DNA of 37,125 nt from Porticoccaceae bacterium (GTDB lineage Bacteria; Pseudomonadota; Gammaproteobacteria; Pseudomonadales; Porticoccaceae), in NCBI GenBank assembly GCA_029246925.1, contig JAQWMF010000021.1, positions 1 to 37,125 on the forward strand. The letters run 5' to 3'. The notes below the pieces were generated by a model. It did no database searches. It worked only from the letters and a program-made list of their open reading frames with translations, and was not told the DNA's origin. The position numbers and the translations under genes are program-made. Each line of letters begins with the position of its first letter. Position 1 is the stretch's first letter. This document shows, in pieces, positions 2,624 to 21,484 of this stretch.

Positions 2624-3994
2624 TTATGATAAAGCCTCTAGGGCTTGGTTGACTGTGCGCACCGCGGTCACTTTCATACCCTTAATGGGCTGTTTAGGCT
2701 TATTGCCAGCAGGGATAATAGCGTGTTTAAACCCATGTTTCGCTGCCTCGCGTAAGCGCTCCTGACCATTAGCCACGGGCCTAATCTCCCCTGCCAAACC
2801 CACCTCACCAAACACCACAAGGTCTTCAGGCAGCGGACTATCTCTAAAACTGGAAATAACCGCCATTATTAGAGCTAAGTCAGCACTGGTCTCTAGCACT
2901 TTGACTCCGCCAACTACATTGACAAAAACATCTTGATCCCCAGCCATAATGCCGCCGTGCCGATGCAGTACTGCCAATAGCATAGATAAGCGATTATGAT
3001 CCAAACCCACGGTTACCCGACGCGGATTTCCCAAATGGCTATCATCGACCAATGCCTGCAATTCAACCAAAAGAGGTCTTGTCCCCTCCCAAACCACCAT
3101 GACCACACTGCCTGAAGAGACATCTTCACCACGCTGAAGGAAAATTGCCGAGGGGTTAGCCACTTCAACCATCCCTTTATCGGTCATGGCAAAAACCCCA
3201 AGCTCATTGACTGCGCCAAAGCGGTTTTTATGACTGCGCAGGGTTCTAAACTGGCTATCACTGTTACCCTCAAGCATTAATGAGCAGTCAATCATATGCT
3301 CAAGCACTTTCGGCCCTGCTAATGAGCCGTCCTTGGTCACATGACCCACCAAAATCAATACGGTATTGGTCTGTTTGGCATAGCGCACCAACATGGAGGC
3401 ACTTTCACGCACCTGCGAGACACTACCAGGGGCTGATGTGACCTCTTCCATATGCATTACTTGAATGGAATCGATTACCATAATCTTAGGTTTTTTCTGC
3501 TGAGCCACTGCACAGACAGTTTCTACCGAAGTTTCAGCCATGATTTCTAGCTTATCCGTGGGCAGCTGCAATCGTGACGCGCGCATGGCCACCTGCTGAG
3601 GTGATTCCTCACCGGTAATATAGAGTGCAGATTCTGTATCTGCTAACTTACATAAGGTCTGCAATAGTAATGTACTCTTCCCGGCCCCAGGTTCACCCCC
3701 CACCAAAATCACTGAGCCCGGCACCAAGCCACCGCCCAATACCAAATCCAACTCGCCCACTGAGGTGCTTATTCGAGGGATTTCATCCAGAGTAATTTCC
3801 GCCAGTGTTTTCACCTGACCATCAACCGCTGCCGCAAAACCCGTTCTTGATATAGGCGATGAGCGAGTCGCCGCCCCAAGGCGGACCTCAGCTAAGGTAT
3901 TCCATGCCTGACAGTCATTACACTGCCCCTGCCACTTACGATAATCCGAGCCACAGTCATTACAGACATAGGCTGTTTTGGTTTTAGTAGACAA
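2624..3994 (-). CDS. radA: DNA repair protein RadA/Sms
   Basis: N-terminal C4 zinc finger (TAYVCNDCGSDYRKWQGQCNDCQAWNT), Walker A GGEPGAGKSTLLLQ, RadA KNRFG motif (HKNRFGAVNELGVF), Lon-like C-terminal domain. The track extends to 4135, but a TTG at 3994 with GGAG 8 nt upstream gives the expected RadA N-terminus (STKTKTAYVCNDCG). Confidence 0.93.
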   Translation of the reverse strand: MSTKTKTAYVCNDCGSDYRKWQGQCNDCQAWNTLAEVRLGAATRSSPISRTGFAAAVDGQVKTLAEITLDEIPRISTSVGELDLVLGGGLVPGSVILVGGEPGAGKSTLLLQTLCKLADTESALYITGEESPQQVAMRASRLQLPTDKLEIMAETSVETVCAVAQQKKPKIMVIDSIQVMHMEEVTSAPGSVSQVRESASMLVRYAKQTNTVLILVGHVTKDGSLAGPKVLEHMIDCSLMLEGNSDSQFRTLRSHKNRFGAVNELGVFAMTDKGMVEVANPSAIFLQRGEDVSSGSVVMVVWEGTRPLLVELQALVDDSHLGNPRRVTVGLDHNRLSMLLAVLHRHGGIMAGDQDVFVNVVGGVKVLETSADLALIMAVISSFRDSPLPEDLVVFGEVGLAGEIRPVANGQERLREAAKHGFKHAIIPAGNKPKQPIKGMKVTAVRTVNQALEALS

Positions 3995-4008
3995 ACACTT
4001 AACTCCAT

Positions 4009-4028
4009 TACTGTTTTTATATACAGTA
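4009..4028. promoter_or_regulatory. LexA (SOS) box
   Basis: TACTGTTTTTATATACAGTA: CTGT-N8-ACAG core inside a 20-mer with TACTGT/ACAGTA ends, very close to the E. coli consensus TACTGTATATATATACAGTA. 15 bp upstream of the radA TTG start, in the radA/DnaT-like divergent region. Confidence 0.85.
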
Positions 4029-4122
4029 ACCGAAACAGGCATTATTTTCAATCTCAATTTACTGTAAACATTAGTCAGAAAAGTTATATTTTCTCGTTCA
4101 TTGGGATTGTTTCTGATAGAGT

Positions 4123-5244
4123 ATGAGCATGTCATTAATACCTGAAAAATCCATCATATTTTCGCCAACCTTAGCAGCAACCCTAGGTTTAGAGGAGGCA
4201 ATACTACTTCAGATACTGCAAGAGTGCGTCAGCCACTCTGAACAGGTAACCAGTAGTGGTTTTGCGTGGACATCCATATCAGGCGAAAAGCTACAGGCGC
4301 TGAGCCCCTTCTGGAATGAACAGGATATTCGACGATTAACCGCGAGCTTGCACGAAAAAGGTCTACTACTTGTTGGCGGCGGAGCATTTGTTACCCGTCA
4401 AGAATTTCGCTTTGCCTTTAATGAAAATAGTTCGACCTCAAGTAGCCCTAAAGCACGCATTAAACCGCCGCAGACAACACCAAAAGCACACTCAGCACAG
4501 ACCATTGGTAATAGCTGGCAACCCAGCCAAGATTGCCTGCGACAGCTTGCACAGCTGGGGGTAACCAATGAATTTGCCTACCAACAGATTCCCCAATTTG
4601 TCACCTATTGGCGCAACCGCAATGTGCCTCGCCACAGTTGGGAGGCAAAATTTATTAAAGAAGTGTGGCGCAACTGGCAGCAAGCTGAAGCGATCAATCA
4701 TCGTAAAAACAAACAACAGCCCATGATCGGCGACTGGTATCCCTCGCAAGACGCACTGGATATCCTTTGCAAACAGGGCTCGATCAATGGCAACTTTATT
4801 GAAGATGCCATTCCTGAATTTATTCTCTACTGGCGCGGTACAGGAGAGGCCTCAAGCACTTGGGATTCTAAGTTTGTACAGCATGTTCGACGCCAGTGGC
4901 AGTTCTTTAATGGCATGATGAATCAAGATAAAACACCAAAGACAATGAGTGCTGCATGGAAGCCCAACGAGTCAGTATATGATGTATTACAAATGGCCAA
5001 TATCGATCGCAATTTCGCCGAAAGACTAATCCCTGAATTTGTGCTTTACTGGCAAGAAAATGGCTCTGCACAGTGCTCGTGGAGCACTAAATTTTTACAA
5101 TATGTTAAACGTCAGTGGGCGCGACATATTCAACCCCAGACAGCGGACAATAACTATGGCAAGCAACAAGGATCTAGTTCAACAGGTCGTATCCGAGATC
5201 GCAACATCATCGACGCGCTCTCAGACAGAAGCTGGGCATCCTGA
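4123..5244 (+). CDS. Protein with N-terminal winged-helix-like region and three tandem DnaT-like ssDNA-binding domains
   Basis: Three aligned ~56-aa repeats: WQPSQDCLRQLAQLGVTNEFAYQQIPQFVTYWRNRNVPRHSWEAKFIKEVWRNWQQ, WYPSQDALDILCKQGSINGNFIEDAIPEFILYWRGTGEASSTWDSKFVQHVRRQWQ, WKPNESVYDVLQMANIDRNFAERLIPEFVLYWQENGSAQCSWSTKFLQYVKRQWA. They fit the DnaT C-terminal domain pattern (W.P....L......F......F..YW......W...F...V...W). Confidence 0.82.
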   Translation: MSMSLIPEKSIIFSPTLAATLGLEEAILLQILQECVSHSEQVTSSGFAWTSISGEKLQALSPFWNEQDIRRLTASLHEKGLLLVGGGAFVTRQEFRFAFNENSSTSSSPKARIKPPQTTPKAHSAQTIGNSWQPSQDCLRQLAQLGVTNEFAYQQIPQFVTYWRNRNVPRHSWEAKFIKEVWRNWQQAEAINHRKNKQQPMIGDWYPSQDALDILCKQGSINGNFIEDAIPEFILYWRGTGEASSTWDSKFVQHVRRQWQFFNGMMNQDKTPKTMSAAWKPNESVYDVLQMANIDRNFAERLIPEFVLYWQENGSAQCSWSTKFLQYVKRQWARHIQPQTADNNYGKQQGSSSTGRIRDRNIIDALSDRSWAS

Positions 5245-5821
5245 TAATGGGCCTCAGAATCCGCACCTGATTGATGCTATCAATCAGGTGTTTGCGCTGT
5301 TTCAAATTAACTACCATAACCAGTATTTCAGTGCCTTTGGCGATAACACTAAATCAGAAAATTTAGCTAAAAATCTATGGCTTAATAAGTTATCTCAATT
5401 TAGTGACGAGACTATTTGTGGGGCGGCAGAAAAAATTATTGCCGACAATGATTACCTACCCACACTGCATAAAATGCTTGAAGCCTGTCGCCAAGTAGGC
5501 ATGCCAAAAGGTCTGCCTACCCCGCGCAATGCCTATATGGAAGCCTGTAACAAACCTAGCCCCAAAGCGGCGCAGGATTGGTCACATGCGGCAGTTTATC
5601 TTGCAGGTCGAGACTGCGGATGGCATCTACTTGCCAATGAGATAGAGCGAAAAGCCTTCCCGCTATTTAATGAGTGCTATCAGAACTACTGTGATCTTGT
5701 GTTAGCTGGGGATCAGTTAACCATTGAACCACCCAAAGAATTACCTGAAACCTCTGCAAAAAAAGCTAGTCATCAACAAAACCTCGAACAACTTAAGAAG
5801 TTAAAGCAATTAATCGACTGA
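5156..5821 (+). CDS. Lambda replication protein P-like (putative DnaB helicase loader)
   Basis: MASNKDLVQQVVSEI...INQVFALFQINYHNQYFSAFGD...NLAKNLWLNKLSQFSDETICGAAEKIIADNDYLPTLHKMLEACR...LPTPRNAYMEAC resembles the phage replication protein P family. ATG at 5156 is more likely than the track start at 5039; overlaps the upstream DnaT-like gene by 89 nt. Confidence 0.75.
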   Translation: MASNKDLVQQVVSEIATSSTRSQTEAGHPDNGPQNPHLIDAINQVFALFQINYHNQYFSAFGDNTKSENLAKNLWLNKLSQFSDETICGAAEKIIADNDYLPTLHKMLEACRQVGMPKGLPTPRNAYMEACNKPSPKAAQDWSHAAVYLAGRDCGWHLLANEIERKAFPLFNECYQNYCDLVLAGDQLTIEPPKELPETSAKKASHQQNLEQLKKLKQLID

Positions 5822-20479: not shown

Positions 20480-21484
20480 GTGAATCGACTGGAATCACTA
20501 TCATCCGCTCACAGCATTAACCTCGAGCCCAATGACGCGCATCGCCTTGCCTCTCTTTGCGGTCAATTTGATGAGAATCTGCGCCTGATTGAACAGCGAC
20601 TAGGTGTTGAGATTCGCTCGCGTGATAATTTCTTTGCTATCTATGGCGAACCTAAAGCCTGCCAACATGCACTAGATATTTTATTTAACCTCTATCAACA
20701 GACCGCTCATTATCCAGAATTACCTATTGAAGAAGTTCATCTCAACCTCCGACAATCTGAGAGAGAAAAACCTATGACCCAAAACGCTAGCACTATCGAA
20801 TCATCAAACAATATTGAAAATTTTTCGGTAATTAGAACCAAGAAAGGCAATATTAAGCCTCGAGGGTTAAATCAACAGCGTTACGTAAGAGCCATTCAAA
20901 CTCACGATATTAATTTTGGCATTGGCCCTGCAGGTACTGGGAAAACATACCTTGCAGTAGCCTGTGCTGTAGAAGCATTGTTGCGCGATGAAGTGGAGCG
21001 CATTCTCTTAGTTAGACCTGCCGTTGAGGCCGGCGAACGACTGGGCTTTCTTCCTGGAGATTTGGCGCAAAAAGTAGACCCCTATCTCCGCCCTTTATAC
21101 GATGCTCTTCATGAAATGCTTGGATTTGAGGCCGTCGCTAAATTACAGGAGCGCGGAGTGATAGAGGTTGCGCCGCTAGCTTATATGCGAGGTAGGACTT
21201 TAAATTCGGCTTATATTATTCTGGACGAAAGCCAAAATACGACGCGTGAACAAATGAAAATGTTCCTGACAAGAATCGGTTTTGGCTCTACGGCTGTAAT
21301 CACGGGGGACTGCTCTCAAATTGACCTTCCTAAAGGGGTAAGCTCAGGATTGGTTCACGCTCAAGAAGTTTTAAAATCAGTTGAAGATATAAGCTTTACT
21401 GATTTTATCTCTAGAGATGTGGTACGCCATCCGGTGGTTCAAAGCATTGTTGACGCCTACGATGACCACGAAGCCAAATCCTAA
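20480..21484 (+). CDS. ybeZ: PhoH-family ATPase (YbeZ/PhoL type)
   Basis: GPAGTGKTYLAVACAVEALL, VRPAVEAGERLGFLPGDLAQKVDPYLRPLYDAL, ILDESQNTTREQMKMFLTRIGFGS; GTG start; conserved miaB-ybeZ-ybeY order. Confidence 0.95.
   Translation: MNRLESLSSAHSINLEPNDAHRLASLCGQFDENLRLIEQRLGVEIRSRDNFFAIYGEPKACQHALDILFNLYQQTAHYPELPIEEVHLNLRQSEREKPMTQNASTIESSNNIENFSVIRTKKGNIKPRGLNQQRYVRAIQTHDINFGIGPAGTGKTYLAVACAVEALLRDEVERILLVRPAVEAGERLGFLPGDLAQKVDPYLRPLYDALHEMLGFEAVAKLQERGVIEVAPLAYMRGRTLNSAYIILDESQNTTREQMKMFLTRIGFGSTAVITGDCSQIDLPKGVSSGLVHAQEVLKSVEDISFTDFISRDVVRHPVVQSIVDAYDDHEAKS

Follow-up and report, generated by a model that had tools for sequence, protein, structure and literature searches.

Loading of the replicative helicase is essential, yet it is carried out by unrelated proteins in different bacteria. 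In phage lambda, the C terminus of the O protein contacts the P protein. Adjacent O-derived and P-derived genes were reportedly named DopC/DopE by Brezellec et al. in 2017 (Genome Biol Evol). DopE is mentioned as a loader family in a later paper (PMC13326638), and the DopC/DopE work is also cited in another (PMC6784150). The order Cellvibrionales had been flagged by Brezellec et al. in 2016 as lacking both DciA and DnaC/I, with the replacement left open (PMC5109545). The locus described here most likely fits the published DopC/DopE system, with a P-derived gene next to a putatively O-derived one in a lineage of the Cellvibrionales that lacks dnaC/dnaI and dciA.

The window analyzed is a stretch of 37 125 nucleotides from a Porticoccaceae bacterium (contig JAQWMF010000021.1) with a genome of 1.55 Mb. 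The host belongs to the SAR92 clade, and the named genomes closest to it are bins from that clade and from Porticoccaceae, in the order Cellvibrionales (NCBI taxonomy). An earlier note on this DNA had placed RadA/Sms, a protein with three DnaT-like domains and a P-like loader at one locus, and all three were recovered by profile match. The gene order is radA on the minus strand (2624–4003), a LexA box (4009–4028), and then dopC (4129–5244) and dopE (5156–5821) on the plus strand. The identity of RadA/Sms was unambiguous, with a score of 677 bits to TIGR00416, whose cut-off is 403. Its start is probably the GTG at 4003 or the TTG at 3994, and not the ATG at 4135 given by the longest-ORF listing, because for many relatives the alignment does not set in before about codon 15–20 of the longer frame. 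The locus is flanked by a TonB receptor gene with a cobalamin riboswitch and by type II secretion genes, and no phage genes were present nearby. The riboswitch (RF00174, 100.6 bits) lies at 2332–2580 on the minus strand, immediately upstream of the TonB-dependent receptor gene at 341–2218, an arrangement consistent with control of B12 uptake.

The product of dopE (221 amino acids) matched the ‘P-like helicase loader’ family phrog_109 over almost its full length (1.6e-13), and lambda P itself matches this family too. Direct sequence similarity between DopE and lambda P was weak. A profile comparison of DopE with lambda P aligned 180 columns at E = 4e-4 with a low probability of 34%, the Pfam lambda-P model did not match DopE, and a PDB sequence search with the DopE profile returned nothing credible, but fold comparison did find lambda P. 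DopE was modeled with AlphaFold2 from an alignment of the window protein with those of relatives, and a Foldseek search of the PDB with this model (mean pLDDT 77) gave lambda P chains of the DnaB–lambda P complex 9oa1 as the top three matches, the best of them with E = 1.3e-4 and a probability of 1.00. Taken together, the profile match and the modeled fold place DopE in the lambda P family as a predicted member. As the earlier note had it, the start of this P-like protein overlaps the DnaT-like gene: placing it at ATG 5156 gives an overlap with dopC of 89 bp, and the overlap in relatives is of near-constant length, typically ~ 86 bp. Within the overlap in the window (5156–5244), residues are conserved in both frames.

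The dopC gene probably starts at 4129 (MSLIPEK, conserved), whereas the ORF listing has an ATG six bases earlier, at 4123. Its product carries three PF17948 (DnaT) domains (E = 1.5e-65), in agreement with the earlier reading of the first plus-strand gene, together with a winged helix at about residues 10–98. The N terminus matches phrog_6493 and resembles DnaD-like loaders. Foldseek comparison of the DopC model (pLDDT 80) identified initiator N-terminal domains of the RepA type (4pt7, 5kbj, and 4pql) and DnaT84–153 (4ou6 and 6aeq), with probabilities of 0.92–1.00 and weak E-values of 0.06–0.3, the latter being attributed to single-domain matches within a multidomain chain. A separate DopC profile search gave DnaT at E of about 1e-3, and a single-sequence PDB search gave weak DnaT matches alone. 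Profile and fold comparisons, which had been proposed for both proteins, thus returned the P fold for DopE and DnaT and initiator-type matches for DopC. DopC has the DnaT single-strand-binding domain in common with E. coli DnaT, but it has three such domains per chain and falls well below the DnaT equivalog cut-off (NF002770, 10.5 bits vs 201), the domain alone being common to both.

No direct match of DopC to a lambda O family was seen in the PHROG profile search. DopC nevertheless resembles O proteins in the position of its gene, upstream of and overlapping its partner, in its initiator-type winged helix, and in an O-type tail. The likeness to lambda O/P comprises the P fold and family of DopE, the O C-terminal tail motif of DopC and the gene order, while the differences are the three DnaT domains and RepA/DnaD-type winged helix of DopC and the chromosomal location of the pair. 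DopC ends in L[ST]DxSWA. A relaxed form of this motif was found in 74 of 76 DopC proteins, whereas among 602 other ORFs only 2 had it. Lambda O closes with the relaxed motif too (LTNTDW), as do 32 of 36 distinct phage O proteins encoded upstream of P (many of them closely related to each other), but the pattern was picked after DopC and several phage tails had been viewed, so that these counts are descriptive and not a test. Because the tail-coding region overlaps dopE in another frame, part of the tail conservation may reflect dual coding; the tail is nonetheless retained in distant relatives whose overlaps differ. Given the contact of the lambda O C terminus with P, the DopC tail may, by analogy, dock DopE.

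The divergent arrangement of radA and dopC-dopE was kept in most loci of the order, over many families, so that the synteny with radA extends well beyond this strain. Named hosts of the pair include SAR92, Porticoccus, Halieaceae, Simiduia, and Exilibacterium, and the pair is vertically conserved in the Cellvibrionales. The distribution of the P-like gene was compared with that of DciA (PF05258). Among 50 genomes of the genus, the P-like gene was present in 45, while DciA was absent from the host genome and from all but one of the 50, the exception (G048) being 74% complete with 4% contamination. Among 37 other families of the order, the P-like gene occurred without DciA in 22 and DciA without the P-like gene in 13, while two had neither and none had both (Fisher 3e-8, uncorrected for phylogeny). 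When 370 genomes from across the class were sampled, the P-like matches ranking first to fourth, the host genome included, all came from DciA-negative genomes. A search of the host genome for DnaC/DnaI (PF01695) gave one match, which was below the cut-off, and this DnaC candidate (20480–21484) was rejected as PhoH. PriA was present in the host genome, PriC was not found, and there was no separate DnaT, the DnaT domains of the genome all lying within DopC. Because the host genome is 91% complete, these absences rest on the relatives. With DciA missing from the lineage and DnaC not detected in the host genome, and with its P-derived partner and Cellvibrionales host, the pair can be placed alongside DopC/DopE, as the earlier note had surmised. 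The pair is like DciA and DnaC/DnaI in its presumed role as DnaB loader but is unrelated to them in sequence; within the order, DopE and DciA are mutually exclusive.

The favored explanation, to which a probability of roughly 0.8 is given, is that dopC-dopE, a phage O/P pair since domesticated, acts as a constitutive replicative helicase loader in place of DciA/DnaC, and that radA alone is controlled by LexA. An alternative, put forward in the earlier note, is that DNA damage induces a dedicated fork-restart module: LexA would repress the genes on either side of the box, and the pair would put DnaB back onto collapsed forks. The LexA box itself (TACTGTTTTTATATACAGTA, 4009–4028) is near-consensus, lies between radA and dopC, and has the same sequence in the host and its five nearest relatives. 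The host has an SOS regulon: CTGTN8ACAG sites number 21 in its genome against five for the reversed control, the radA box is among them, and further AT-rich sites lie upstream of recA, lexA, and umuD, which makes SOS/LexA control of radA likely. Nothing clear on such control of radA was seen in literature titles and abstracts. RadA, a helicase of the DnaB type, works together with RecA (PMC5512693), which would suit a damage-induced module. The position of the box argues otherwise. In the 44 loci with a box, its distance to radA codon 20 was 23–89 bp (SD 17), whereas its distance to dopC was 81–1544 bp (SD 575), because GNAT/SDR genes are inserted between the two and, in genome G049, an oppositely pointing gene, codirectional with radA, parts the box from dopC. 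Where plus-strand genes are inserted, a divergent operon with dopCE at its end might still be controlled from the box, but no good second LexA box was found near dopC in those loci. Outside Porticoccaceae, the box was absent from most loci and found in few.

The dopC gene has, moreover, a promoter-like element of its own. A conserved CTCGTTC block (−35-like) and an extended −10 (TGaTAGAGT, 4114–4122) together span 4094–4122 on the plus strand, ~ 66 bp beyond the LexA box. The element is locked in position to the dopC ATG: the extended −10 (TCTGnTAnAGT) lies six bases 5′ of the ATG in every SAR92-type locus read, one of which has TAAGGT, and slightly altered forms of it recur in several further genera. 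This spacing implies a leaderless start, with the ATG at about +1, and positions 4094–4129 are predicted to form a leaderless dopC promoter. On these grounds, control of the loader pair by SOS was rejected. The pair also occurs away from radA in some DciA-less relatives and outside the order, and the sole detected loader of a cell would have to be always on. A damage-induced module is therefore considered unlikely, though in the host window, where the box is ~ 100 bp from dopC, some LexA influence on dopC is conceivable. Of the coupling to radA and a LexA box that had been proposed as new, the box proved real and is assigned to radA, while SOS control of the loader was not supported; this assignment guards against wrongly claiming that damage induces helicase loading. 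The pair could instead be limited to PriA-dependent restart as a DnaT-plus-loader substitute, with an undetected factor loading helicase at the origin. The DnaT domains are of the restart type, and PriA occurs without PriC or a separate DnaT, but the exclusion with DciA, which is the origin loader in other bacteria, implies replacement of the general loader, and the restart-only reading is improbable. It is possible, at somewhat less than even odds, that DopC unites initiator and restart functions in a single chain, with the winged helix for the origin, the covalent DnaT triplet in place of the DnaT trimer for PriA-dependent restart, and the O tail docking the P-type loader; origin firing and restart would then both depend on this pair in a cell without DnaT, PriC, DnaC, or DciA. 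The O/P ancestry of the pair would also fit a prophage remnant or cargo of phage origin with no role in the host, but this reading is contradicted by the intact frames at the same place in many families and by the lack of phage genes nearby, and no close homologue was found among viral contigs with the window protein P0002 as query. This candidate was rejected as highly improbable, and the pair looks domesticated, as had been suggested.

In the constitutive loader explanation, DopE would use its lambda-P fold to bind DnaB and open its ring, and DopC would bring DopE to DNA. The winged helix of DopC may contact duplex DNA or an initiator, the three covalently linked DnaT domains would hold single-stranded DNA, standing in for the DnaT trimer within one chain, and the C-terminal tail could hook DopE as the O tail does P. 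Expression of dopC-dopE would be constitutive, from its own leaderless-type promoter, with LexA acting on radA only, and the long dopC-dopE overlap suggests translational coupling. The pair would most likely be essential to the cell. Marine SAR92 and related clades appear to depend on a captured phage loader. The loader mechanism is open to direct testing through its O-type tail and DnaT triplet and through the clear-cut exclusion with DciA.

As far as checked, the new elements are the tail comparison, the anatomy of promoter and box, and the finding that some small genomes outside the order carry the pair. In three loci of distant relatives (L090, L091, and L092, in genomes G092, G058, and G064), the P-like gene is accompanied by a short form of DopC that has one DnaT domain, with no radA beside it. 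Each of these loci adjoins an apbC-like gene, and L090 a MetRS-like gene as well (named by eye from sequence), and the three families concerned are DciA-negative. Outside the order, three genomes of ~ 1.2–1.3 Mb (G250, G342, and G417; loci L207, L208, and L209) have dopC-dopE next to aroG and genes for RND efflux. Linkage to radA is therefore not required. No DciA was found in these three genomes, which possibly represent another lineage using the dopC-dopE loader.
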